The position numbers and the translations under genes are program-made. The notes under the pieces are model-generated. The model made no database searches. It saw only the letters and a list, made by a program, of their open reading frames with translations, and had not been told where the DNA came from. A DNA stretch of 64,000 nucleotides from Cornus controversa (Eukaryota; Streptophyta; Magnoliopsida; Cornales; Cornaceae). The stretch covers positions 105,892,033 to 105,956,032 of the forward strand of contig CM048845.1 of assembly GCA_026545225.1 (NCBI GenBank), read 5' to 3'. Positions 27,563-53,200 of this stretch are shown here, in pieces. Position 1 is the stretch's first letter; each line of letters starts with the position of its first letter.

Positions 27563-27612
27563 ATTGATTTGGTAGTTAAGTGCCAAATACTTCGTATGCG
27601 TTTATATATGAG

Positions 27613-29985
27613 ATGGCTTCTGGAGGAAGACCCTTTTTTGATCTTAATAAACTCCCTGAGGAGGATGAAGAGAGCAATGACATTTCATGTTTCCAGCCCC
27701 AAAGGGCAGTTCCATCTTCAAATACACATACTTCTGACTTGCTTGTATCATCAAGTGGTCCCCAAAGAATAGTAAATAATCATGCTTTCTCCCATGCATC
27801 ATCTGTTTCGGGTTTTCAGCCTTTTATTCGACCAAAAGGTGTTCAGGGATCTAAAATTTGTGCTGAACAGAGTATGTCTGGGGATTTGATCTCCAAGATT
27901 GCTTCATCATCTATGACAATTAATAGTGGGGATGCAAAGGTAACACCACAGTTAGATTTGGGTTCTGCAGATTATCAAGCTGTCGAAAAGGAGGAGGGAG
28001 AGTGGCTTGATGCAGATGTCTCAGCTGATGCATATGGAAGCAATAGTATGTCTAAACGGTCCTTTTCTGGTTATGGTAATGATTCACAGGAGAAAGGCAC
28101 GGCTGAGATGATGGATGGTTGCAATTCTGATGTTGCTGCTGAGAGTTTCTCTCGAAATGATGAAAGTATCAGGGATGAGAACAGTGATCTTGCTTCTTTA
28201 GGATTGGATCCAGAGACCAACAACCGAAAAAGCAGTACTAGTCGAGATTCAGAAGGCAATGTTAAAGGTGATGTTTCCATGGGTAGTCAGGAAGAACCTG
28301 GGTTGATTATAAAACAAAGGGATTTTAAAGGAGTTGAAGCAAGTCATGCACAAAAGTATGCAAATAATCTTGGAAAGCGTCCCAAGTTTGATCAGCAGAA
28401 GGAAGCAATGCTGGGAAAAAAGCGTAGTAGGCGGACAATGTTTCTTAATTTGGAAGATGTCAAGCAAGCTGGTCCTATCAAAACTTCAACCCCAAGAAGG
28501 CAGAACTTTCCAACACCCGTTACCACTCGTATTGTGAAAGAAGTACGGAATGCTTTTCTACCTCATGAAGGCATTGGAGAAAAGCAGAATCAGCCGTTGT
28601 TCAAGGACCCAAAACAGGTTGATTTATCTCGTAATGAAGGAAACAGTAACATGGAATTTAAAGACTCTAAATCAGAGTGTAATGGTGATACACATACAGG
28701 ATTACTAGCTAGGCCTCGGAGGCCAAATAATATGATGGATCCTGCTGCTGAGGTTAACCCACCTTCCATTCCAAGACAGGGTTCATGGAAGCAGCCCACG
28801 GAATCGAGACAGCTCAAGAATTTGCAGGTCTCTACTGGGAAGCCTGCACTAATCACTCAAAGCTCTATGGATCAAAAATTAATAACCAAAAAACTCCCTT
28901 CCAAGAAGCAAACTACAGTCAGCACCCAATATCAAGATACATCAGTGGAACGTCTCCTGCGGGAGGTGACTAATGAAAAATTTTGGCATCATCCAGGTAT
29001 CTAAAATATTATTTCGTCACGTGAGTTTATAAACTTTTTTGACTGTAGCGTTTTTGGCATTGTACTTTCCCAATAATTCCTTCTCATCTTTTTTATTGCT
29101 ATAATGTACATTTAATTCAAGGGTTGATGGATAGTTCAATCTTCCTCTCTTGGAGGACATAGCAAATTTATTTTTTGTCTAGCCTCTAGGTCTGTAAAGC
29201 TTCATTGTAGATGAGATTTCTCCTCATCTGACCATCTTGGGCTCCTCAAAAGAAGAAGGTTTACATTTATCTATGATTGAAAGTCTCTGCTACTGGTGGT
29301 ACAAAAATACACTCATAGATGGGTACATCTGGTCAGAGTGTCATTTTACTATTGCCACATGATGATTCATTTTCTTTTGGATCACTGCCAAATAGAGAGG
29401 CTATACCTCTTTGTTGAAGTATAATGCCCAGTTTTATATTGTAATTAGCCTTTCAAACTTCAAATTCTGAATGCTCTCATCCTCGTCTTGACTGTTTTCT
29501 CTGCTTAAGACAAGTTTTGGATTGTTCTATAATTGAAGATTTCAGCAACTATATATACATATGTATGTGTGTGTGTGTGTGTATATATATATCTATATAT
29601 ATACAGTGAATGGACATTTAAAGATAGATATGCAGCACAGTATTCTTCATTCCATTATCATTTATTATTTTACTCATGTGAATCAGATGTCTGTTGAGAG
29701 AGTAAATTTACCGTTTCTGCTGATAACTTTTGTCCAACAGCTTTAATCAGTATCAGAATGTATAGTGTCTAATTTTATCTGCATCTCATCTCATCTCATG
29801 TGATTCTCTATCTGCATATTATATGATATGAACCATAGTCTGCCCTTGGGAGGGGGAACAACAGTTGGAAATGGCTGTTAATACTCTGTAGGCTGAGTAG
29901 CAAAAGGAGGAATCTGCCTGAGGTGGTCGCGTCTGATTAGCTAGTTTGTGAGGCAATAGCATACCAAGGCGATGATCAGTAGCTA

Positions 29986-30018
<33 letters not shown>

Positions 30019-33000
30019 TAAATGGCCTAGACTCCTCCCGGAGGCAACAATGGGGCATTTTCCACATGGTTGGGGACATAGAGTATTGCTTCAGTTCTAT
30101 ACAACCTTTTAACACTTGTCATAGTTAAATTTGTGGTGATTATTTGAGGATTTTGTTGCCTCATTCATCCAAAATGATGCTTCTTTGCTGTCTCCTTTTT
30201 TATTCCTTTTTGTTTTTTGTGGAGCATATTCCCTTCTATTTTCTGTACATAATATAACAATTCAAAATTCGCGCATCAACAGAGGAGTCTGAGCTCCAAT
30301 GTGTTCCTGGTCGATTTGAATCTGTGGAAGAGTATGTTAGAGTATTTGAGCCCTTGCTTTTTGAGGAATGCCGAGCACAGCTTTACAGCACCTGGGAGGA
30401 GTTAACTGAAACAGTTTCTAGAGACTTACATGTTATGGTCCGTGTAAGGAGCATTGAAAGACGAGAAAGAGGTAGTCTGCCTTTTACAATATCTCATTTC
30501 TATTAATACTTTTTTGTGACACATGTCAGTTTTATGGCGTTCTTGTAATCTTCTCTAGTTATATATCATTGTGCTTTGAACTATGTGATTTCTAGTAATC
30601 CTGGCAATCTAAGTGGACGTTATGTTTTTGTTTCTATGTTCAATTTGTTGATGGATTGTTAATATATATATTTTGGTAAAAACACTCATGAGAGTAAATC
30701 CTAGTTTTTATTTTTTAGTTTTGCAACTTGAGTATTCTTTTAATGTTTTCCCCATATTGTCCTAGGATGGTATGATGTAATAGTTCTTCCAGCAAATGAG
30801 TGCAAATGGACATTCAAGGAGGGCGATGTTGCAGTACTTTCATCCCCAAGGCCCGGAACAGGTTTTATTTGACTTATTTAATATGGAATTTCTGCTTACA
30901 CAGATCTGCATCAAGAATATTTATTGTTTCAGTTCATATGAATCTTAACTCGTATTACATTAAGCAGTCAGATCCAAGAGGAACAATACTTCTACAGTTG
31001 ATGATGATGAGGAACCTGAGGTCAGTGGCCGTGTAGCTGGTACGGTTAGGCGGCACGTACCTATTGATACTCGTGATCCTCCTGGGGCAATCCTTCATTT
31101 TTATGTTGGGGATTCTTATGATTCTAACAGGTTGCTTGAAGTTCCTCAAGTTTTTATCTCATTTTTTGTGATTATCTGAAATATCTTGTGTTCTGGAGTT
31201 TTGGTTATCATGTCAATTATTGCAAGGTCTATTAAACCATTATGTTGATGATGACTCCCCCCTTTTTCCAAATAATTATTTTTTCCAGCAAGGTTGATAA
31301 TGACCATATTCTAAGGAAACTTTATCCCAAAGGCATCTGGTTTCTGACTGTTCTTGGTTCTCTTGCAACCACCCAAAGAGAGTACATTGCCTTGCATGCA
31401 TTTCGTCGCCTTAATTTGCAGGTGACTGCTTGTAATCAAGTTTCTGAAATAAATGATTTCTTCTTTTAAGCTTATAATGCTTGTATGGAAACAGATTAAC
31501 ATAATGTCCTTTTCTGTAGATGCAAACTGCAATCCTTCAGCCTAGTCCAGAACACTTTCCAAAATACGAAGAGCAGCATCCTGCTATGCCTGAATGCTTC
31601 ACACCAAATTTTGTTGATTATCTGCATAGAACATTCAATGGACCTCAGCTTGCTGCAATTCATTGGGCTGCAATGCATACAGCTGCTGGTACAAGTAGTG
31701 GGACGACCAAGCGGCAAGATCCATGGCCTTTTACTCTAGTCCAAGGGCCTCCTGGAACAGGCAAGACTCACACGGTCTGGGGAATGCTAAACGTCATCCA
31801 TCTTGTTCAGTATCAGCACTACTACACCGCACTGCTTAAGAAACTAGCACCTGAAAGCTATAAGCAAACTAACGAGAGTACCTCTGACAATGTTGCCACT
31901 GGATCCATTGATGAAGTTCTCCAGAGCATGGATCAGAATCTCTTTCGTACTCTTCCAAAACTTTGCCCGAAACCTAGAATGCTTGTTTGTGCTCCTTCAA
32001 ATGCTGCAACTGATGAATTACTAGCACGTGTTCTTGATCGTGGGTTCATTGATGGTGAGATGAAAGTTTATAAACCTGATGTGGCCCGAGTTGGCGTTGA
32101 TTCACAAACACGTGCTGCTCAGGCAGTTTCTGTTGAGCGTAGAACTGAACAGCTTTTAGTCAAGAGCCGTGATGAGATTTTTGGATGGATGCACCAGTTA
32201 AGAGGTCGTGAAGCTCAGTTGTCTCAACAGATGGCTATTCTACAAAGGGATCTCAATGTTGCAGCTGCTGCTGGTCGTGCCCAAGGATCTGTTGGTGTTG
32301 ATCCAGATGTGCTTGTGGCTCGGGATCAGAATCGAGACACTTTGCTGCAAAACCTTGCAGCAGTGGTTGAGAACAGGGATAAAATTCTCGTGGAGATGTC
32401 CCGCCTTCTCATTCTAGAAGGCAGGTTTCGTGCTGGTATCAACTTCAATTTGGAGGAAGCTCGTGCTAGTCTTGAGGCAAGTTTTGCCAATGAGGCTGAG
32501 ATTGTTTTCACTACTGTCTCAAGCAGTGGTCGCAAGTTGTTTTCCCGTCTTACTCATGGTTTTGACATGGTTGTCATTGATGAGGCAGCTCAAGCTAGCG
32601 AAGTTGCTGTTCTTCCTCCCCTCGCTCTTGGTGCAGCACGCTGTGTTCTTGTCGGGGATCCTCAGCAGCTTCCTGCAACAGTTATCAGCAAGGCGGCTGG
32701 AACCTTATTGTACAGTAGAAGCCTCTTTGAAAGGTTTCAGCAAGCAGGCTGCCCAACTATGTTGTTGTCCGTGCAGTATAGGATGCATCCTCAAATCCGG
32801 GATTTTCCTTCTAGGTATTTCTACCAAGGACGCCTTACTGACAGTGAAAGTGTTGCTAATTTACCTGATGAAAGATACTATGATGATTCTTTATTAAGGC
32901 CTTACGCTTTCTATGATATTACTCATGGTCGGGAATCCCATCGAGGTGGATCAGTCTCATTTCAAAATATACACGAAGCACAGTTTTGTCTCCGTTTGTA

Positions 33001-33829
33001 CGAGCACCTCCAGAAAACTTTGAAATCTTTGGGTATGGGAAAAGTTACCACAGGCATAATTACACCATACAAGCTGCAACTAAAATGCCTTCAACGAGAG
33101 TTTGAGGATGTTCTAAATTCAGAAGAAGGGAAGGATGTGTATATCAATACTGTGGATGCTTTCCAAGGCCAGGAACGTGATGTCATTATAATGTCTTGTG
33201 TCCGCGCTTCAAATCATGGGGTGGGCTTTGTTGCTGATATTCGCCGAATGAATGTTGCTCTCACTCGTGCAAAAAGAGCTCTTTGGGTATGGATTTTCCT
33301 TCATCTCTTATTAGAACACCTGCTTCTTGCCTGCACATGCATGCGCATGCGAAATGCTTCAGTATGTGGTTTTATCTTGCAATAACTGAGTTTGATGATT
33401 TAACAGGTCATGGGAAATGCCAATGCTCTGACGCAATCCGATGATTGGGCAGCATTGATTTCTGATGCCAAAGCAAGAAACTGTTACCTGAACATGGATT
33501 CTCTCCCTAAAGATTTCCTGGTGCCAAAAGCACCTGCTTATGCTCAATTGCCTGGTAAGGTCTCTAATATGAGGGGTATGAGATCTGGGGTAAGGCATAG
33601 ACCATTTGATGTGCACATGGATTCCAGGTCAGGAACACCATCAGAAGATGATGACAAGTTGAACTCATCACTAAATTTTAAGAATGGGAATTACCGGCCC
33701 TTAAAGCCGCCAATGGAGAACTCCTTGGATGATTTTGATCAGTCAAGTGATAAATCCCAAGATGCCTGGCAATATGGCATTCAGAAGAAGCAAAATTCAG
33801 CTGGGATTGTGGGAAAGAGAGACTTGTAG
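27613..33829 (+). CDS. SEN1/UPF1-like superfamily 1B RNA helicase, 7 coding exons
   Basis: Exons are 27613-28996, 30283-30471, 30766-30861, 30968-31130, 31289-31421, 31520-33286 and 33407-33829, giving 1384 residues. Splice sites are GT-AG and phases join. The start at MASGGRPFFDLNKLP was chosen because homologues begin with this [RGRP][LF]FDLN motif; an in-frame ATG lies 33 bases upstream. The first 460 residues are polar and low in complexity. The helicase core starts near residue 690: Walker A GPPGTGKT (about 731-738), DEAA (about 1009-1012), VGDPQQLP, QYRMHP (about 1074), VDAFQGQERD (about 1200-1209) and VALTRAKRALW (about 1234-1244). A helical, coiled-coil-like insert lies at about 865-955. 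SEN1-type proteins unwind RNA or RNA:DNA hybrids in termination and RNA processing; the exact role here is inferred. All catalytic motifs are intact. Confidence 0.94.
28997..30282 (+). other. Intron of the helicase gene holding a plastid rDNA insertion
   Basis: GT donor after atccag, AG acceptor at catcaacag. It contains a TG/TA microsatellite (29567-29604) and the plastid 16S fragment at 29838-30072. Confidence 0.85.
29838..30072 (+). pseudogene. Nuclear copy of plastid 16S rRNA gene fragment (NUPT)
   Basis: The stretch follows bacterial/plastid 16S rRNA through the V2-V3 region. Recognisable strings include tgcccttgggaggggga, gtaggctgagtagcaaaagg, cgcgtctgattagctagtt, ccaaggcgatgatcagtagc, gatgatcagccacactggg and agactcctcccggaggc. 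Small indels and C-to-T or G-to-A changes from the expected sequence show decay after transfer. It lies sense to the host gene inside an intron and is not a functional rRNA gene. Confidence 0.93.
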
Positions 33830-34800
33830 CAATTGCTTGCTGTATGCATAATCTCCTCATGCCTTGTGGGAGCTGCAAAGCATTCAAAATTTGGAAGTTT
33901 TTAATGTTTGCTCCTAGTTTCAAGAGCTCTTGGAGCAGTCGCTCCTGATCTCTTGAGCTGAACCAAATCAATTCTGAACAGATTCCTCCTGAGCTTATGC
34001 AGAATACTTGGAAGTGAGTTGAGAAGATCAGGAGAACAGAGAATTTGAAGACACAAGTCAGCAAGTGAATGAAACTGATTGGTTTTGTGAACAACTGATT
34101 TCTGTTTGACAGATCTTTATGAGTTCCCACAAAGTGCTTCCTGGGTTTCTGGTGTGTTCTGTGGAATCAAAACCTTAGCCCCCAGCTTCTACAGGAATCA
34201 AAGATAGGAAATCTCTTTTAGTTGCATGTGTTGACATGTAATCTTCTGATTTGACTTTTATCTGAAAATCTCCCGGAGTTACTGCATTATCGGATAAAAA
34301 ATAACTCAGGAATTCGATGCGTGGAATCAAAAAGCATTTTGGGTTTTAGAATATGCGAGCTGCTTCCTTTGCCAGACAGAGTCTGGCCAAAATTGCCATC
34401 TCTTGCTGTAATAGATCATTGAATTTCTTGGTATCGGGAGAGAACTTCCCAGTAACGGCCTTGACTTTCTGGCTCTCTTATCACAACATACAGCTGCTGC
34501 TGAACCCTGGATCTTGGAATGCTGATTGAAAGTGTCTCATCTTACAGAGTAGTTACATTTATCATGTACATTGTCGGGATACTTGTGGATGTTTGTCTGG
34601 AAGAGGGATATTCGAATTCTTGTAGGGTTAATTTTTTTGTTCTTCCATTTATTTGAAGGGGACTTGAGATGCTGAACCTGCGTCAACAAGTCACCTTCCT
34701 GTATAGAAAGGAAATAGTACAAGAGAAACCTCTTTGCAGAGGCACTTGGAGGATGTCAGTGGACTTTGTTCTGTACATAACTTAATGTGGAATGATAGAA
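33830..34800 (+). other. Probable 3' UTR and downstream region of the helicase gene
   Basis: The sequence after the stop codon keeps a relatively balanced composition to about 34.8 kb, then becomes AT-rich. No other gene or transposon was recognised. The polyadenylation site was not fixed. Confidence 0.4.
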
Positions 34801-37250
34801 ATTCATGTCAATGCATTGCATTTATTAATTTATTTTTTTCTAGCGAAAGCTTCATTTTTGTTTTGTTCTGTTATCAAAGGTGCAGTAACCTTGAATAGAG
34901 ACCAAGCACACACATTTTTTTTTAGGTACGTTATGTCCTTGCTCTATTACAAGAGCTCTTGTGACAATGGTCAAGTTCATAGTGTAGTTTTTTTATTTTA
35001 TTTTTATAATTCAATAAAAAAAAACTGTGTAAACTTTATTTGATGTTAAATTGCAAATTTGAAAGTAGTGGTTCTTCCTCTGGTTTGGTTGATCTGATTA
35101 TTCACTTGTTCAGACTTCGTCCAGTCAATGTGTGGTCGAAATTCTGATATTCTCAACCCAGTTTTTTTTTTTTTTGTTGGATCTGCGAACTCTTTGAATT
35201 TAAATATTGATAAAGTAGCATAGCATGATAAGTGGAGTTCGTTAATTTGGAGTCCAGTTTACATTTAAAATACCTAAACGTCTATTCAAATTAGAAAAAT
35301 GATAAAAGATCCTAATTGAGACTATTGTGTCAATTATTTATTTAAATACTTTAAGAGGAGAGAGACATTATTCTTATCCATTACTTGTTAATTGTTTATT
35401 TAAATACTTTATCCTCATCTTATCAAAAATTTTTGTTAGACACTAGTTTTTGGAGTATTAATAGCGGATGTGTCAATTGTTTATTTAAATGTTAGACACT
35501 AGTGATTGGAGTGCGAGAAGGAAAAAAAACCCATCATGAAGTGTAATATTACTCTTCAAATTATATTCTGTTCATCTAATACTAGAAAAAAATCCTCCCC
35601 ATTCAGATTTGATATATTTAAAAAAGATACGAGTAGTTACTAAAAGGCTGAGCAAGGCAGTTGCTATTTATAATGGAGAACTAAATCCAATTGACTCCTT
35701 CAGTTTCAATCATTAAAATGTCCCACATTAAGGAACTGGCAAGAATAGATAGCTGGATCTTCTATGTAGACCCAAATCATATTTATTATAAGGATTTGCT
35801 GGTCATTGGAAGGAAAATGTAGGACTTGTCCATAATTTTAAACTTTAAATCAGAAAGCCTACAGGTTCAGGAGTTGGTGGATAGGATATATAGTAAATAC
35901 TTGAGCTCTGGGGACAATTTGTGACTGGTCTAACTCATCTAAGGCTTTTGATTTTCTTGTTTTGCATGCTTCTGTTCATTCTTTTGTATATACTATATAT
36001 GCGTGTCTCTGTTATAGTTGTGGTTTGGTCTGCGTCTCTTTTTCTATCTGTTTATAAGGCTGTGTTTGTATCTGTCTTAATAAAATGCCAAAAAATAAAA
36101 ATAAAAATAAATGCATCGACATTAAAATTGAGAGAAACAATCCACAATCCATAATCCATAATATTCATTCACTTGCTTATTCAGAAATGAGATGTGCAAT
36201 GTGATCCTGCAAGCTCTTGCTTTCTGCTACATTCATTTCATCACTTATAAAACACACCTTTCCCCCCCAAGTGGGAAAACTAGACAAAAAAGAAAATAGA
36301 CTAAACATTAATATATACTTTCAGACTAAACAAATGTACGTAATTAATTATAAACACCAAAATCAAAAATTATCACTAGTTAAAGATGACAAGGAAAGTA
36401 TTCCGATTTTCTCCTGTCGTTTGTGGAATGTCAACACACAAGAAGATTAGATTAGGATTCCCACATCCATCTTTATTCCTAAATTCTTGAAAAAAGAGAG
36501 CCTCAGAGTCAACCCTATATTGTGTTTATCTCAGACTCAACCAAATTGATTAGCAACTGAAAACCCTAATCCAGCAAACTTTACTAACAACACCAAAGGA
36601 GCATTCCAGCAAACACAATTTTATTACAAAACCATGTAGCTGTTCTAAACTATAAGTGTAAACTGATGATCATATCATGCCTTCCATTTTATTTTTTTTA
36701 TTTTTATTTTAGCCTTTATGCCTTCAATTATATTGACCACAAAAACCACCTATAGATGATCAACATTTCAAAACAATAAAAGAATAAGCAAAATAATTAA
36801 GTAATATATGACTGGCAATTTAAGTAAGTAGGATTGGAACAGAAGAAGGAATAAAGGTCAAAAGGGTTCACAACCAATATCCATTCACCTTGTAATTTTA
36901 AGTCCAGTGAAGAGAAAATAAATGCAAGTGTTCCCAATCAAAATCTTTTCCATCCATACATCTTGTTAAGATCCAAATTAAAGCCTGTAACACCTAAATA
37001 ATTTTCCATTAATTTGAAAACCATCTTTCCAAATGCAACATTATGGATTGGTAATAGACTAATTGTGGAGCATACCATAATTACTATATTTACAGCCACT
37101 AGTTTATGCATGCGATAATTTTTATTCTTTCCAGATTGTCATAGAAACATGATCTGGATACCACAACAAGAAACCCAATCCAAAAACAAGAGGAACTTAT
37201 TCTTCATTATATCTGTTATCCTACATCTATCTAATATCTAAAGGTCCCCC
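34801..37250. other. Intergenic DNA, no gene supported
   Basis: Short open frames only, none resembling a known family. No transposon ends or RNA genes seen. Confidence 0.5.
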
Positions 37251-37272
37251 CACCCATGAACACTGAGAGGCC

Positions 37273-37280
37273 TATAAAAC
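37273..37280 (+). promoter_or_regulatory. Putative TATA box of the MIR477-type gene
   Basis: tataaaac in the context gcctataaaacc lies about 75 bases before the miRNA hairpin on the same strand, a plausible distance for a short pri-miRNA leader. Confidence 0.5.
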
Positions 37281-37349
37281 CAGTTTTTGTCGCCGTTCTT
37301 TTGCATGTTAAGAGGGGTTCAGCAATACAATTGAGATTGAATAAGAAAA

Positions 37350-37466
37350 TCAAGGCATTTCACATCCCCTCTCCCTCAGGGGCTTCCATCTCAAGCATGC
37401 TTGATGCTGGAAAGTTTGTAGGGTTGAAGCCCCTGAGGGTAGAGTGGTTGAGACTTGCTTTGGCCC
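37350..37466 (+). ncRNA. MIR477: MIR477-family microRNA precursor hairpin
   Basis: The 5' arm at 37369-37389 begins CTCTCCCTCAGGGGCTTCC, matching the family pattern CUCUCCCUCA(A/G)(G/A)GGCUUC. The 3' arm at 37423-37444 (gttgaagcccctgagggt, then agag) pairs with it almost perfectly, with one bulged A. Pairing continues outward: the 5' flank from 37351 and the reverse complement of the 3' flank agree at about 16 of 22 positions. The loop contains a small stem, tcaagcatgcttga. Family members often target GRAS-type or other transcripts in eudicots; the targets here are not known. A 73-residue open frame across this region is not considered a protein gene. Confidence 0.82.
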
Positions 37467-37479
37467 TCAACATGTAAGA

Positions 37480-38700
37480 ATAGTAGACTCCATGTTTAAG
37501 AGCATCAGCCCATACTGATAGCTGACTCTAACTGAATACAGGTACCCACATACATTCCTTAACACTTCTCATTTCATTCATTATACAAAAGAGTAAGAAA
37601 TGCACACCTGATCACTTTAAGAAACTATTATATACTTTTCGCTTTTGTTTTTATCTGTTGGCCACTTTGACATTCCCATGAGGTTAAAATCCCAAACCAC
37701 AAGCCTATCATTTTTATACCCGTTCAACACCAACCCCTGCAAATATCAACCAAAATGCTCAAGAACCTTTCAACATGCTTTATGCTCCTCTTTTCTTCTC
37801 CTCAACCAGACCATTTTATCTTCAGTATCCAACAAATCCTCTCTCCATCCTTAAGTCACCATCTCTTCCCGTTTAATCATGTATCTGGCCAAGACAGACC
37901 ATCTGTGCTGTCATCTTTTGATAATTTATTCACATGATGGCAGTCAGCCTTTGTAACTCACCTGAAGCATGCAAAAGTTAACATTACAAAGATCTAGCAA
38001 AAACTCTGAACTTGTGCAATTATGGTGAGATGCACATCCTTATGGCTAGTGTTCCATGTTAAATCCAAAATATTCCATACACATTTGTTTATATATAAAA
38101 TCTTCTACACCAGAAAATGTTTTTTGACCTAGAATTATTTTACATGGGAAAAATTCATTTTCCATCTCATTTTGGGTGCCTGGTTGAAAGTTTAAAACAA
38201 ATGACCAATACAAAAAAAATGCATGATAAAAACATACAAACATTCATATTGTTTGTAATACAAGTGCTTCTAATGGTGTACACAAACACTACTATATGCT
38301 ACGTATGTGTGCATATACTGTAGGCATGCAGATAAGCAAGTATATCTATGACTATGTAAACAAGTGCATATATGTGTGATTATATATACAGTATATGTGT
38401 GTGTGTGAGGCGTCTATACACGCATGAAATAGGGGTGCATGTCTCTACATCTGTTGTTTGGGCAGATAATTCTTGGTAGTCTATTGGAAAAATAGCGTGC
38501 ATAAAAAGTCTAGCTTTTAGGTGATATAAGCGATTTTCATTTTTCTCCAAACATTGTGTAAAATATTTTACAATCAATTAATGTTTGAAAATGCTGAAAA
38601 AAATTCCAGAAAAAAATTGCTGTATGTTGAAACATTGTTAAAATAATAATAATAAAAATCAACCAAAATTGAGAATTAAATCGAATAACTAGCCCATTGA
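37480..38700. other. Intergenic DNA, no feature supported
   Basis: AT-rich, with a short TG/TA-rich run near 38370-38410. No coding frame or repeat ends were recognised. Confidence 0.5.
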
Positions 38701-38703
38701 TCT

Positions 38704-39203
38704 GTTACATGGACTCTTCAAAAGTACATGAAGTGTACGTGTTAGAGATTTACTCGGAGAAGGATATGGGTTATGTGTCTGATAGTTGGACATGCATCTA
38801 AAAAGCATATCGCCATATCCAATAATTCACTTTTATTAGAATATGGTTTCAAAACATATGTTACCTGGACTTAGATACGTGTGTCTGGTGCGGGTATGTA
38901 TCCAAGCGTCAGGCATATCAAATCCCCAAACGAAAGACGTAGGGACATTGCTAAATATTCATATTATCTAATATTTTTATTTAATTTTATTAGAGTAAAA
39001 TAGTTTCATTATGTTATATAGTGCTTAATATAGGCATTTAACTCGTTTTGAAGCAATAATATAATAAAATTGAATCATTGGATATGCTTTTTAGGTGCAT
39101 GTCCAACCAAAAAATGTCGGACACATGTCCTATATCCATGTCCGAGAATAGTGTGTCCAACACAGGTACTTCAACTACTTAGAAGAGTCCATGTAACATA
39201 GTT
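38704..39203. mobile_element. Foldback element A (arms about 125 bp)
   Basis: The left arm (gttacatggactcttcaaaa...) pairs with the reverse complement of the right arm (gttacatggactcttctaag...), both ending in ggacatgca(t/c)ctaaaaagca. The ends resemble a repeated asterid-type family that starts gttgctcggactcttc. It has no coding capacity and is interleaved with element B. Confidence 0.75.
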
Positions 39204-39392
39204 CAAAACGAGTTAAATTCCTAGTTTGAACACTATGTAACATAAAAATGTTATTTTATTGTAGCAAATAAGAGAAAAATATTAAATAAAATGAATAATT
39301 ATCAGTGTCCCTATATCCTTCTAAATGGGGCTTTTATACATTCGGACCCAGTCCATCGGACATATGTATCTGTGTCCAAGTAATATAATTGG
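38861..39392. mobile_element. Foldback element B (arms about 190-200 bp), interleaved with A
   Basis: The left arm 38861-39060 begins gttacctggacttagatac and ends tttaactcgttttgaagc. The reverse complement of 39200-39392 begins attacttggacacagatac and ends tttaactcgttttgaac. The ends have the same (g/a)ttac(a/c/t)tggac core as element A, so both belong to one family. Confidence 0.75.
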
Positions 39393-39824
39393 TGACAAAG
39401 CTTTAAGTCACAGTTGCAATATCACAGTTGCGGCCTTGCAGGGTATAACGGTGATTATGTAATAGTATTGACCACATTGTCGTGAAATATTCTCAACAAT
39501 ATAGAACTTGTTCAAAATTAGCCGATAAACATCTTTTATCTCCAGAGTCCAATTAAATCATGTTTTTAATTTAAAGAATTTTATTTAATATTCAAGGGTG
39601 ATTTTCAATGAGTGGCCTATAAAATAAATTTTGAGGCATTGTCATCAGTATATGTGTACTAATTTGTACTTTGCATTAAATCTATAGCCACAAATGCATA
39701 TTAAACAATATATCATCATGTTATATTTACAAAAATTATATACACTAATAACTTAAAAGTTAGAAATGAGTATGAAAGCAGCGTAATATATGTGCAATAT
39801 TTAGAATTTATTTATTTTTGACTT

Positions 39825-42690
39825 CCTATGTAATTTTCTCTGTTCGGAAGAGTTGGCCCAATCTGTGGAGTGTAGGAGGGGAATTCAACGTGATTCGATC
39901 TACGTTGAAGAGGTGGACTTCGTCCATGGATCAATTCTCGGAGTTCAATGATGGGTATCAGTTGATTGATTTGTTGTTGGAGGGTGCGTCCTTCACGTGG
40001 TCCAGTGGCAGACAGTCTCCTACCCTATCTCGGCTAGATAGATTCCTCCTATCCAGAGATTAGGAGGAGAAATATCTAGATGTGGTTCATGCAGTGTTGG
40101 CTAGACCTATCTCAGATCACATTCCATTGGTGTTGGATTGCGATGGTTGCGGAGGAGTTCTCCATTTAGATTTGAGAACATTTGGCTTCGGGTAGAGGGC
40201 TTTAAGGAAAGGGTGCAGTTCTGGTGGGAGTGATACAGAGTGAGGGGTTCCACGAGCTTCATTCTTGCAGGCAAGCTCTATTTTTTGAAGGAAGACATCA
40301 ATAGGTGGAATAAAGAAGTTTTGGGAAATTTGGAATAGAGGAAGAATAGGGCGCCTAGAGGGGCAAGGTGGGTTGGATGAGTCAATGAGACGTAGGAAGG
40401 AGGAGTGCAAGGCAAAGATTGTGGATATCGTATGTCAGAGGAGATTTTGTGGCGTCAGAAATCTCGGGCCTTATGGCACAAAGAGGGTGTAGGAACACGA
40501 GGTTTTTCCATAGGCTTGCCAACGCCTACAGGAGGGCCAACCATATTGGGAGGATTTGGGTGGATGAGGAGGTGTTATGTATGGAGAAGGAGGTGTGCAA
40601 AGGGATTGCCTTCTTCTACCAGATATTGTACACAGGGACTCAGGGAGTGATAGCTGGAGACCCCGACTTGGGGGCTGCATTTTGATTCGATTTCAGACGA
40701 GGATAGAGACAAGATGGAGAGGCATTTTAGCAAAGAGGAAGTTTGTTGGCGCTGAAGAGCTGCAATACGGACAAAGCATCAGGCCCGAACGAATTTATTA
40801 TGAGGTTTTTTCTCGAGAGTTGGGAGGTAACCATGGGGAGGTGATGGGCACCTTTCATGCTTTTCATTCTCTATGTTGGTTCGAGAAATGCATGAATGCT
40901 TTCTTTATTGCCCTCATTCCCAAGAAGAGGGGAGTGTATGATGTTAGGGACTTTAGACTTATTAGCTTGAGGCTTGTTTTGGATGGTATCATCTCGAATT
41001 CCCAAAATGATTTTATTAGTGGTTGGCAGATTTTGGATTCAGCCCTTATTGCTAGCGAGTGTATGGATTCCAGATTGAGTAGTGGGGTCCCAGAATTCCT
41101 TTGCAAGCTTGTCATTGAGAAGACATATAATCATAATTCATGAGTTGGAGCTTCTTGCTTTACTTGTTGGCGAGGATGGGGTTTGTGGAGAAGTGAAGGA
41201 GGTGGATTGAGTTTTGCATTTTCTCAGTGAAGTTCTCGATTCTAGTGAACAGGTCTCCGATTGATTTTTTCAGGAGCTCGTGGGGTCTAAGGCAGGGGCA
41301 CCCCCTCTCTCCTTTCTTATTTATTATTGTGATGGAGTCTCTCAGCAAGCTGAGGAGGAGGGCAGTGGAGTTAGGTTTTATCTGAGGTTTCAGAGTGGAC
41401 AGAGATCACTCTAGTCAGTTGGAGATTTTCCACCCTTTGTTTGTAAAAGACACTCTAGTACTCTGTGATGCAGACATGTCTCAAATGAGATACTTGAGCT
41501 GTGTTTTGATTTGGATTCAAGTAGTCTCTGGTCTAAAAATCAATGTGAGGAAGAGTGTGCTAGTATCGGTGGGGGAGGTTGCGAATATTTCTACCCTTGT
41601 TGATATCCTTGGTTACGGAGTAGGTTCTTTCCCTATTTCATATTTGGTATTGCCTTTGGGGTGGCTCGCAAACCGGTGGTTGAGAGGTTTGAGAGGAGGC
41701 TCGCGAGGTGGAAGAAACAGTATCTTTCGAAGGGTGGGAGGGTCACCCTGATGAAGAGCACGCTGTCGAGTCTTCTTACTACTTCCTATCTCTTTTTCAG
41801 ATCCCTTATACGGTGGTTAGGAGGATAGAGGCTTCAGTGTAATTTCCTTTGGGGTGGTATGAAGGAGGAGTTGAAGTACCATCTCGTTTGTTAGGGGCAG
41901 GATGATTCAATCGGGTGGCCTGGCGATTAGGAGACTGAAGCCTTTCAACAAGGCTCTCTTGGGGAAGTGGCTGTGGAGATTTGATGTGAAGAGGCTGAGG
42001 CGATGGAGGAGGGTTATTGTTAGCAGATTTGGAGAGGAAAGGGGTGGTTGGTGCTCCCTTGAGGTGAGGATTTCAGGAGGGGTTGGTGTTTGGAAGTTGA
42101 GGGTGTTCTCTTCTCAGGGGAGGTTTGATGTGCGCTCTTTCTATAGAGCCCTCTCGGATGCCCCGAGGCATGCTTTCCTATGGAAAGCAATTTGGCGCAC
42201 AAAGACCACCCCCCCAAGGGACCCTAGACAATCTAAGGAGGAGATAGATTTTTTGTTAACTGGTGTTGCATGTGTTAAAGGGATGAAGAGTTAGTAGTTG
42301 ATCTCCTGTTGCATTGTCTTGTGGCTAGGGACAATTGAGGCTTGCTTTTGGCTTTGTTTGGATTTAAATGGGTTATGCCCTAGTCTTCGATAGGCATGAT
42401 TGAGGCTTAGAGAGGTTGTATAGTGGGTCCCTAAGCCCGTGACTTTTAGAGGGTGGTGCCCTTGTGTGTTTGGTGGTGCTTGTGGAGGTTACGAAATGGG
42501 AGATCCTTTGATGTGGAGGAGACTCCAATTGGGGCGCTGAAATTTTCTATCATTAGTTCTCTTTTTTGTTAGGTTTCTGGGAAAGATTTGGACATATTGA
42601 GAGATTAGGGGCCCTATTTTGTCCTTGTTTGTTTTTGTCGATTGCGTTCCCCGTTTGAACACATTCTAATACAATCTTTTTTATTAAAAA
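39825..42690 (+). mobile_element. Degenerate L1-type LINE, 5'-truncated
   Basis: The copy starts inside the endonuclease domain (VGGEFNVIRS near 39866; LLEGASFTWSSG; LSRLDRFLLSRD ending at 40063). It continues with reverse transcriptase pieces (about 40740-41760) and a zinc-binding C-terminal part (LGKWLWRFD near 41960; DNL, then CVKG remnants near 42225-42290). Frames are broken repeatedly. The RT active-site box near 41449 reads FVKDT instead of F(A/V)DDT. It ends near 42690 with an A-rich tail. It is not active. Confidence 0.85.
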
Positions 42691-47241: not shown

Positions 47242-50200
47242 TCAACTAGAACCTTGATCTGGCTTTGAACCAAAATAATTTCGTCGTTTTCCTAGTATCT
47301 CAGCTTCTCTAGCTATCTGGATATCAGAAGGCCAAAACGTTTGATGTAGAACTTTGAAAATAAAGCGAGGGAGCAGTGCTAAAGATATTATAAGCAAAAT
47401 GGAGAGCCAATAGGTAGGTGACTTTGCCAGATGGTAGATTGTCCTGCCAAATATACAAAATACATTAGTTCCAAATAAAACCATAAAGTTAGAAATATCT
47501 AGTATTACATATATTTGAAATATGGACTGTAGAGGAACAGACTAACCCATAATTGGGGAATTTGGGTATAGAATCCAATACCACCAAAGAGGCATATGTA
47601 ATGATTATTGATCCCCATACTGCAGCATGAGTAACAAGTACCCAACGCTGAATGTCCATTGCCAAGTGCAAATTGACTAGGATAACAACTGCAATTGTCC
47701 ATAAACTGCCGATGCTCCATATGTCAATTGTGCTATCCCTATAGATGAATAGGGGTACATAGAAGAGAATAAGGCTCTGCCATAGTGTGTCAATCATCGT
47801 GATCCAGAAGAGACATGTATTGTAGCTCTCTTGCCTATGGCCAGCACTATAGAGTTTTGGATACTGGAGTAGTGTCTTATGACTCAAGTCCTTGTCCAAA
47901 ATACCAACAACAATAGTAGGTACTGAAGTATAGATAAGAGAATAAAATACACTACTCCAATCTGTTAATGCAGAAGTTGTTGAGAAAGCTGTGAACAATA
48001 TATACCTGGCAATAACAAAGAACAGCATGATGGAACATCCAAGTGGAGCAATTTAATGAAGGCATGAAAAATACTACAAAGAACTATAATACTCATTTAA
48101 ACCATTTACCTGTAAGGATAAAAAACCACAAAAAGAATCAATTCGGTAATAAATGTTAAGAACCAGACAAAAACCTATATTCTTAACCTGGGCAGTGTTC
48201 CACTTAAAACAAAAACGAGCCCAAAAACAGAACATATAAATTTGTTGCATGTCCGTCATTAACAAGCAATAATATTTTTTAATAACTCACATCCCATGTT
48301 CTTTCTACCTTTTGCAACACCTTTACGGCATTTAAAGTGCTCTAGAGCACTCTGTATTAGTTTGTCCAATGCATTCACTGCAAATTACAAACCAACTATT
48401 ATTACTCACCGCAATTGTCACTTAAGTTCTAAAAAGGAACTCATTTGTGAAGGCAACTCAAATGTCACCCAGTTGTACACAATTTGAAATTCATCCTTTC
48501 TATCCTACCAGCACCATACTCTACACACATTATATATAGTGTTCTTCACATGGGTATCTGTTAGGTTAAATTATCTGCTAGAAAGCACTCCACAGGGACA
48601 ATTTATCCCTTCATGGACGAGTCTAATTAAGTGACAACTGCCCTTGATCTCTCAACTCCCTACAGGAGGAAGACTCCTACTGAAAAATATTAGTCATTTT
48701 CACCAGCAGCTACTAGCAACAACAACAACAAAGATTTCTTATCCACATCTACCTCTTCTTCAGCCTCAGTGATCAACACTACATCATCTCTTAAAGTATG
48801 CATACAAAATCATTAATGGTTTACTTAGTACAATTCTCATTCCTTTATTTTATTGCAAACTGCAGTAGCTCAATAAGCCCTTGTTCTCATTACTCAATAG
48901 TGCACAAAGTGAAAACAATTGGATGACAGAGTAGAATTTTCAATCACGATATGCTTATGATCCTTTCTCTTTCACATTGATATGTATAAATATGCAAGTA
49001 ATGTTACAAAAGAGATCTCACGGTGTGTCATTTTGCTGATCATATAGTTTTAGTCAGTGAAACTAAAGTAAGAAATAATTTTTAGTTAAGGCTATGGAGA
49101 AATATTAAAAAATAAATAAACCTTCTAAAAATAGATAAAACTAAAGAAAATATATGGAACTGTGAGAATAGATGAATAGCGTATAACCTTATGCGACTAT
49201 TTATGATAGCTTAGACCAATCATCAACAAGGGAGATTAAAGATAACTAATTATTAAGAAATCTTTAAGCAGGTTGGCTTTTTCCACACTTAATTATCGTA
49301 GTGTTTGGTGGTTATACGTGCATTTGCAGTTCTGTTGGAGTAAAGATTAAAAAACTTACCTTATTATGTTCATTTAAATTTCACATAGAAGCAACAATAT
49401 ATATATATATATATAACACAATGTGAGCATTATATGTTACGTCAAATTGTTTCCACCATTACTTGAAACTACATGTTGGAGTCATTAGCGCCAACAATTC
49501 ACTGCTCATGCTTTTGACTCAAGTCCACTTGGACAACTAGAAGTTATTCTTTACATGGCCTACAACACATGCAGTGCAAATGTATCAGCCTATATATCAT
49601 TTCACTTGACAGAATTACAATTGACACCCAATCCACTGGCTAACTAATTCAACCTATATTAAGAATAAATTGCACTAAATGCAGTTGACAAATTTATGAA
49701 ATCTATTAAATATGGCTACCACATATGAACAAGTTCAGGACTTGGAAGGTTGGTTCTTTAGCGAAAGCCTAATTTCTTGTGGTTTTTAGATATATTAATA
49801 GAAACTAGTGGTCAATCAAACCAGAATTTCTCCTGAAGCAATATTGACAATATTATTTTCCTCTGGTTATCAGAAATTTTTATTTAGAATACAGCATTCA
49901 TTCAGGAATATACTAACATAAAGATCTGAAAATGAAATTAAGAATGAGAAGGCAATGTATGTAGGGAAAAGAAGAAGTATAATTATTCATCATTGAACAG
50001 TGGGGAATGTAGAAACCAAAAGGAAAAGATATATACCAAAAGAGCATCAATACAAAAACGGCATTACGGTAGAAGTTGTAAAGAACCAAATAACCAACAC
50101 GCTGATAATTCCAGTGCCCATGAACAAAAAGTAATCTTTTTAGAAACCGAAATTGCCCCATAGCAAAATCTGATGCCATCACTGCCTGACGCCCTTCCTG

Positions 50201-53200
50201 ACCACATATACCAACACCAACATCCGCCATTTGGATCATCGAAACATCATTAGCCCCTATGAGTAGTGTTATCAATCAAGAGTGAGAAAGAATAATAAAC
50301 CTCTTGATAAAATCAAGTCTGGCATGCAGGCGTGCATGCACAAACAAAGGCAAGTAAATATCAGAATGAGCACTCACCATCACCTATAGCCAGTGTCAAA
50401 TCATCAGTGCGGCTCTTAATCAGGTCAACAATTCCGGCTTTCTGCAAGGGTGCAACACGACAGCAAAGCACAACCCTACAGGAAGTTGCAAGGTCGAACA
50501 GCTGTTGAAAATGAACAATACTACTAAGTAAGACCAACTTATTGAGAGAATATGTGTAATAATCAAAATACAAAAATCAATGAAAAAAAAGGGTCCTCAT
50601 GGCACCTAGAAATATTCTAGAATTGAAATCAAGGTATCTGACAATAAATTAAACAAATGCAACACAACCCTTAAAACTTGTAAACTGAAAGTTTTTTAAC
50701 TAAGAGAGAGAAAAGACCCATGCCTCAGGCTCCAAGTCTTTCTCTAAGATGTAAACCAAACTATTCCCATCAATTATGAGTGCTAGTGGAGTACTCATAG
50801 TTCCATCTTCCCTTCTGGCATCCCAGAGTTGCATTTTGGATAATTTTGTGTCCTCAGGATCCTCAGGACAATCAATTTCAGCCTCACACATTACCGGTTT
50901 TACTCCATATTTGGCCTTAGCATCAGACAATAGATTTCTGCATTCAACCTCTGAATGACCATTTACAATAATCTGCTGCATGTCTGCAGTTAGAAGTTTA
51001 CAAGAAAGACCAATTGAAATTGCTGTCTCTTGCTTATCTCCTGTCAAAACCCAGACCTTGATTCCTGCTTGACGAAGGGACTCAATGGCTTCAGGTACAC
51101 CCTCTTGTAGCTTGTCCTCAATTGCGGTAGCCCCGAGTAGACGTAAATTGCATTCAATAAGAGCTGCTGTTTGGCGTAATTTTATGGATCTATCAGTCAA
51201 TGAAGTGCTTGCTTCTTCATACATGCATTGCCACTCCTCAAGTTCTTCAGCTGTTAAATCCCTGGCACAAACTACGAGCGTACGTAAGCCTTCAGATGAA
51301 TATTCACTTAAATGACTCTGGGTTGCATTCCTTATATAATCATCGCTTGCAGGTTCTTTCTTTAAAATGCTTAACATTGAAGTATCAGCGCCTTTCACCA
51401 GCACTTTTACAGCATTATTAGGAAATCTGATCACAACAGACATTCTTTTGCGCACACTATCAAACTCATGAAGACCCAAAACATCCAACCTAAATTTCAC
51501 ATAAAAATTGTAAAATTACTATTTGATTAATAAATAAATAAAAATGCAAATTCTTTAGGATAAAAAGCATTCAACTACAGATACAATGTGTCGTTAGTGA
51601 CCAAATTTCAGATAATCAACTTGATAAAGTAATCAAATAAAACATTGAAGTATGATGGATGACAAATGGTTTAATAAAGAAATTGAAGTGAGAAAGCTTT
51701 CTACCTTAATTTCTCACCATTAACATCAATAACAATATGCCCAGATGTCCGCTCAAAAAGAGTATATCCATAAGCAGAGGCAGCAGCAACCAGTGCTTGC
51801 TCATCTGGAGATTCACCCTGATAGTCAATTGCTGTGACATCTTCATCTGATTCACTCTCCGTGCAACTTGAAGATGGACTTTGAGTAAGAATAGGGATCA
51901 CAGTGTTACACGCTGCCAATGTAAGAAAAAACTCATGCGCAGCAACCCTTTCCTCTCCAGCTAAGTCTTTATGCAACAATTCCATGAGTTCAGAATTAAT
52001 GGCAATTCCAGACTTCAGCTTCCATCTCCTACTTACAGGGGACATCGTTGGTGCTACTGCAAAAGTTCATAAAAGAAAAGGGCTCATAGAAGAGGATGTT
52101 GGGACATTCATTTTGCAGCCATCTCAATATTCAGTAAGCAAATGTAAACCATCAATGAAGAATAATAAATCCACCATGGGAATTAGCATATTCAAGCTTG
52201 TTTGCATGCACATATATACCAAATACTTACAGATAACAAAAAAATTCCACTTTTCAAGAAAGTAATATCTTAAACAAGGTGACCACCGCTTTACATAAGA
52301 AATTTTGATCAACAGAACTAAGTTTTCATTATTTGTGTATCCCATATCTAAGCCCCTTGTGGCATAAGCTGCATTTTGTGTAAGTTAAATAGTTCTACTA
52401 TCAAAACAGTCATATTATTACACTCTGTTTCATAGGGGGCAAGAAGAAGAGAGCTCATGAAAAGATCACTTGTACATTAAGATAAAAACTCTCAGGAACC
52501 TAGGTTCCTACAATATTTTAAAAATATAACTTCCACACAATAGCGTATTTAAAAACTAAGGCTCCAGATACCTAGATTGTGTTTATTGTTTGTGTGTTTC
52601 CATAATTTTACCCTCCATAATGGCATAAACTACATATGTGTATAGTAATACAGTTCTACAGCCACATAACAATTTGATTAAGGCATGAAGCCCATAAGAA
52701 TGTAGAAAAGGAGACGGGTTGATAAAGAAGAGAGCTCATATTGATAACTTCCCATCATAATGCACACTATCTACTGCCAGTGCAATACACTTGAAAGTCA
52801 AAAATAAGAATACACTTAAAAAATTACCCTTTTGCATGAGTCATGTGTTGGCAATTTCCTACTCAAAATTGTTGTAATTTGTCAAAGTATCTTGAGTCAT
52901 ATGAGTACAATCATTGAAGAAAATGCAGACAAAGAGTTGCAAAGAACACAGCGAGAAATCTGCATGCTCAATAACATATCTGGGGCATACGTAACTGACC
53001 TTACAAATCCTAGTTTTGAGCTTGGAGAAGCTCAAAATATTTATTTATACTTGTTTTTTAAAAATGATTTTTCAAAGTACTGATTTTTTTAGTAGGTTTA
53101 AAATTATCCTTTTATTGAAAAACAGTGTGTGTGAATTAATGGTCAATCAAGGGCTTTCTAGTAGACTTCGATCGATAGATAGATCATTCAAAAAAATTCA

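Follow-up and report, generated by a model that had tools for sequence, protein, structure and literature searches.

The question raised by this locus is whether a hairpin near the middle of the analysed window, a 64,000-nucleotide stretch of Cornus controversa DNA, marks a microRNA gene, and if so which family, strand and target are involved. An earlier sequence-only reading had proposed a MIR477-type microRNA gene. A family gene is supported by a covariance model, a complementary site in a GRAS gene and a TATA box, but the narrower label is less secure, as MIR473 fits equally well. We consider 37350-37463 very probably to be a single-copy microRNA gene of the MIR477/MIR473 family. The hairpin, its duplex geometry, the sister genes, the TATA box and the target complementarity, on which this interpretation rests, can all be read from the DNA itself.

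The hairpin and its surroundings

The 117 nt from 37350 to 37466 fold with an energy of -59.6 kcal/mol, compared to a mean of -38.1 for shuffles (z -5.7), and none of 1000 dinucleotide shuffles was as stable. With wider flanks (37330-37485) the z value is -4.5; among 200 shuffles, one was equally stable. When both strands of the window were scanned in 10-nt steps, 37350-37466 was the lowest-energy 117-nt segment, followed by a segment from 46521 at -57.2 kcal/mol. This fold is that of a plant-type precursor, as had been claimed from the letters. All 18 bases of 37369-37386 are paired, their partner being 37426-37444, with a bulged T at 37440 in the 3' arm and a mismatch at 37387, which agrees with the description of arms pairing nearly perfectly over 21 nt. 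Pairing also continues outward, down to 37350/37463, but the proposed extent of about 22 bases was generous, as the lower stem is interrupted and only 14 of the 19 bases of 37350-37368 are paired. A role of the lower stem is an established part of plant microRNA processing, and its 5' side (37350-37367) would here set the first cut in base-to-loop processing. The microRNA/star duplex contains one mismatch and one 1-nt bulge within a precursor of 114 nt. Structural criteria for plant microRNAs, as given in Table 4 of PMC11293646, ask for a duplex that has 2-nt 3' overhangs and few mismatches and lacks a secondary stem, and for a precursor below 300 nt; the window hairpin has all of these features, the overhangs having been placed by us.

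The surrounding DNA is otherwise empty, as the sequence-only reading held, in that stop-to-stop frames contained entirely in 34200-40100 are no longer than 95 aa. The hairpin and its surroundings, 501 bp in all, have a single match in the 772-Mb genome, namely themselves, and the hairpin is therefore not a repeat hairpin; the many copies expected of a short interspersed element or MITE were not found for it. This copy number largely contradicts the idea of a transposon or inverted-repeat hairpin that yields 24-nt siRNAs and resembles miR477 by chance, as does the homology, described below, to five hairpins of the family, some clustered and others dispersed. Even though the hairpin from 46521, second in strength in the window, belongs to a repeat, a tRNA-like short element with 41 genome matches including its own, we regard the probability of a transposon origin as close to negligible.

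An ATG-started frame of 73 codons does span the hairpin, and a short protein-coding gene might be read from it. However, the frame starts before the TATA box and crosses the hairpin, and among the sister genes the arms are conserved but the loop is not. A protein gene is thus extremely unlikely, in line with the prior view that annotation might call a false protein here. The TATA box had been placed about 75 bases upstream, and TATAAA indeed starts 77 bases before 37350. The features of the locus are collected in Table 1.

Table 1. Coordinates of features at the candidate microRNA locus, numbered by position in the window
Feature	Position	Strand	Basis
73-codon chance ORF spanning the hairpin	37256..37477	+	ATG-started; starts upstream of TATA box
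GGCCTATAAAA, probable core promoter (TATAAA from 37273)	37269..37279	+	identical 11-base word in sister gene
Precursor hairpin, MIR477/MIR473 type	37350..37463	+	folds, covariance model, Rfam MIR473
Lower stem, 5' side, starts TCAAGGCATT	37350..37367	+	pairing; word also in first C1 tandem copy
Predicted mature microRNA CCUCUCCCUCAGGGGCUUCCA	37368..37388, or 37369-37389	+	5' end from published N-CUCUCC starts
Upper stem and terminal loop	37389..37424	+	not conserved among sister genes (alignments)
Predicted star UGAAGCCCCUGAGGGUAGAGUG, for product starting 37369	37425..37446	+	pairing table, 2-nt 3' overhangs

Several other features were observed in the window. A tRNA-like short interspersed element at 46540-46670 matches 41 places in the genome, its own included, with identities of 74-89% at the remaining 40, and contains GTTCGAGCC, which we take to be a box-B-like motif. 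A fragment at 29790-30083 matches bacterial-type small-subunit rRNA (110.1 bits) and sits between the frames 27580-29004 (no Pfam match) and 31520-33385 (AAA_11/AAA_12 helicase). These two frames look like one SEN1-like gene, and the fragment is perhaps an insertion of organelle DNA within an intron. On the minus strand, P-type ATPase exons occupy 47489-52066, with Cation_ATPase and Hydrolase domains in 50700-51515, and by eye this gene appears to be a phospholipid flippase. A WRKY transcription-factor exon (PF03106, 51.8 bits) lies at 2309-2839, also on the minus strand.

Sister hairpins and family profiles

The genome search covered the 771.7-Mb assembly in 61 contigs. The family core CTCCCTCARRGGCTTC occurs at five places, while its reversed control occurs at none. 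At four of these places, including the one in the window, the core belongs to the 5' arm of a strong hairpin; the fifth is within a GRAS gene. With two mismatches allowed, the family pattern was found at 140 places versus 78 in the reversed control, many of the listed places being one repeated word. Loci L001-L005 and 30 of the 140 places were folded, and the relaxed pattern added two hairpins directly adjoining one exact-core hairpin; as 30 of 140 were folded, further members of the family may be present. Four loci with weak 5'-arm folds were left out of the gene count, namely L011 and L018, which resemble each other, L019 and L030. The adjoining hairpins make up a three-copy tandem that spans about 350 bp (C1:5359111-5359465, L001, minus strand) and perhaps gives rise to one polycistronic transcript. 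Two further sisters lie at C7:48290188 and C7:55331869, and the genome thereby holds at least six MIR477/MIR473 hairpins, the window's included.

Upstream elements are partly common to these genes. The window gene carries GGCCTATAAAA at -100, and the C7:55.33-Mb gene has it at -89; when the window side was shuffled 1000 times, a shared word of at least 11 bases within 15 bases of register turned up twice. The first C1 copy carries the TATA-like word TATATAAA at -92, and no TATA-like word was found within 220 bases upstream of the C7:48.29-Mb gene. In addition, TCAAGGCATT is located at -19 in both the window gene and the first C1 copy; an identical word of that length in register was obtained in 6 of 1000 shuffles.

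We trained a covariance model on the five sister hairpins, with the window's left out. Applied to the window, it recognised 37350-37463 on the plus strand with 50.4 bits and an E-value of 1.2e-14 (rough, owing to a short calibration) and its antisense with 45.1 bits, and gave nothing further up to E 10. Among 32 model pairs, 29 are kept in the window hairpin: 21 equal the sisters' commonest pair, 4 are changed on one side and 4 on both sides yet paired, while 3 are broken, in an alignment that was fitted to the model and so leans towards structure. One of the four double changes falls in the microRNA/star duplex and three in the lower stem.

These results bear on whether the locus is a decayed copy, one that was once a MIR477/473 gene and has kept its fold but lost its transcription. 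The window hairpin scores below the sisters (77.3-102.9 bits), though the sisters trained the model, and a weak seventh hairpin just upstream of the C7:48.29-Mb gene (L004:1604-1723, minus strand, 22.9 bits) suggests that decay may happen in this family. On the other hand, pairing within the hairpin is best in the microRNA/star duplex (18 pairs and one bulge), the doubly changed pairs still pair, and an intact TATA box stands where two sisters have theirs. Decay is thus an unlikely explanation, and a retained family gene is preferred.

At its gathering threshold, Rfam recognised no microRNA in the window and gave a single match, to rRNA. A relaxed search gave 15 matches, including MIR473 and MIR477; those to the animal families mir-135, mir-665, mir-296, mir-616 and mir-1006, as well as others, were discarded as reflecting the strength of the hairpin. 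For MIR473 the window hairpin scores 42.6 bits on the plus strand and 36.8 antisense (cut-off 52), and for MIR477 28.9 on the plus and 32.8 on the minus strand (cut-off 65), so neither cut-off is reached. In the genome-wide MIR473 ranking, based on the scoring of 52 out of 112,151 first-look candidates, the window hairpin is fourth of 23 places up to E 10 (E 2.3e-5). The top three are the copies of the C1 tandem, and one of them, at 54.7 bits, exceeds the cut-off. The C7 genes reach 34.0 and 32.8 bits (the latter for the C7:55.33-Mb gene), and other places in the genome score near 33-29 bits, e.g., C5:35165665 with 32.6. Weak MIR473 matches (E up to 10), none above the cut-off, were also found in 8 of 14 unrelated control genomes, meaning that a strong hairpin alone scores something. 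Because one of the six hairpins of this genome passes, we read the cut-off as narrow and not as defining biology; applied as it stands, it would discard five of the six. Since Rfam favours MIR473 over MIR477 with both below cut-off, 'MIR477/MIR473 superfamily' is the safer name.

The scores on the opposite strand raise the possibility that the functional transcript is the antisense one, with CUCUACCCUCAGGGGCUUCAA in its 5' arm, or that both strands are used. Both the match to the five-hairpin model and the higher MIR477 score on the minus strand point in this direction. Nevertheless, the antisense fold is weaker (-52.4 versus -59.6 kcal/mol), its scores are lower with the genome's own model and with MIR473, its arm core contains an extra A, and the family-like TATA lies on the plus side. 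Moreover, all five sisters also give an antisense match, as would any near-perfect hairpin. We therefore consider antisense use highly improbable and retain the plus strand as that of the gene.

Predicted product and candidate target

The mature microRNA had been placed at 37369-37389, a register that matches ppt-miR477, which begins UUCUCCC (PMC1838911). A product one base earlier is equally likely, because most of the published members examined begin one base earlier (N-CUCUCC). The star had been expected at 37423-37444, but 2-nt 3' overhangs shift it two bases downstream, to the position in Table 1.

The 5' arm contains the family mature pattern, approximately NCUCUCCCUCARRGGCUUCN, in agreement with the original assignment to MIR477, yet the closest of the published forms compared is a miR473. 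In ungapped comparisons with ten published forms, the window mature sequence is identical to ppt-miR473-1 at 19/21 positions, can-miR477 at 18/21, mes-miR477k at 18/22, mul-miR477a-5p at 17/19, mul-miR477-5p at 16/20, grape ACUCUCCCUCAAGGGCUUCUG and ppt-miR477 at 17/21 each, peach miRC13 at 17/22 and ppt-miR473-2 at 15/20, with mes-miR477j lowest at 12/21. The best match elsewhere in the window has 15-16 identities (three published forms tried). The exact 19-mer and the GGGG core occur in no paper among the main texts searched, an absence that, for the GGGG variant, we count against our reading.

The fifth exact-core place is antisense to a 542-codon frame with a GRAS domain (PF03514, 382.9 bits), whose mRNA holds TGGAAGCCTTTGAGGGAGAGA at the complementary site C2:89555169-89555189. 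Against this site the window microRNA has a mismatch at nt 1 and G:U pairs at nt 12 and 13, and the other five family members have 0-3 mismatches and 0-3 G:U pairs. With mismatches counted as 1 and G:U pairs as 0.5, its score of 2.0 is the best of any non-self place in both target searches, the next being 2.5. The search allowing up to 3 differences gave 15 places, with 2 in the reversed control, and its non-self, non-GRAS places score 2.5-3. The G:U-aware pattern gave 15 places versus 8 in the control, and for this reason only the top site is informative. One of these 15 is the window gene itself and one the GRAS site. The other 13 G:U-aware places, each of which needs one mismatch and 3-8 G:U pairs, were set aside; the longest target-strand open frame across them is 26-101 aa, lengths that leave room for short exons and non-coding targets. 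Among 90 GRAS matches in the genome, fragments included, one overlaps a G:U-aware place.

The GRAS gene is a candidate target by complementarity, and the sequence of the site also encodes GRAS-domain amino acids, which we count against the target reading. DELLA proteins are GRAS proteins. For grape, miR477 is stated to target GRAS factors in a passage citing other work (PMC6240241), and DELLA genes are named as its targets in another report (PMC8480016). In tea, PAL has been published as a miR477 target (PMC6751461), and in moss a CONSTANS-like factor (PMC1838911). Such differences in published targets among species also count against our interpretation. Collectively, the window microRNA would most likely switch down a GRAS transcription-factor gene, judging by the site it complements.

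Proposed mechanism and relation to known families

From these features we infer transcription and processing of the window gene and slicing of the GRAS target. Transcription by RNA polymerase II would begin a short distance 3' of the TATA box at 37273, and the primary transcript would fold over 37350-37463. The dicing complex would then cut about 18 bases above the open stem base and again about 21 nt further on, so that the 5' arm yields a 21-nt microRNA (first base 37368 or 37369) and the 3' arm the star. This microRNA would guide slicing of the GRAS transcription-factor mRNA at its LEAFEGE codons, as would those of the five sister genes, which pair with the same site. A more elaborate scheme is a two-way gene in which each strand gives its own 5'-arm product (CCUCUCCCUCAGGGGCUUCCA and CUCUACCCUCAGGGGCUUCAA) and the GGGG variant diverts targeting from the shared GRAS site; we consider this very unlikely and favour the single plus-strand product. 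Our analysis adds one well-supported microRNA gene, five sisters and a shared candidate GRAS target site. Protein-based annotation would miss these microRNA genes. The result is ordinary as biology and solid as annotation.

The window gene is a new member of an already known family, with its strand, product and target being predictions. The five sister hairpins have 17-18 of 21 mature bases in common with it, on the same arm. The lower-stem word is common to the window and one sister, and the TATA position to the window and two. In contrast, the loop and flanks differ and the loops do not align, and the C1 tandem is about 100 Mb away. Compared to MIR477 (RF00780; mes-miR477k, can-miR477, grape), the window gene has the same CUCUCCCUCA start and GGGCUUC end in its 5' arm and the same GRAS target class as in grape, but its 3' end is CCA and not CUG or CUU, and its plus-strand score of 28.9 bits is well short of 65. 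Compared to MIR473 (RF00778), the score of 42.6 bits is below the 52-bit cut-off, and GG replaces AA at nt 12-13, which creates the GGGG run and CCCC in the star. However, the window hairpin is matched along the full length of the MIR473 model, and its 5'-arm product is the same as ppt-miR473-1 (CCUCUCCCUCAAAGGCUUCCA, as listed in PMC1838911) apart from those two bases.
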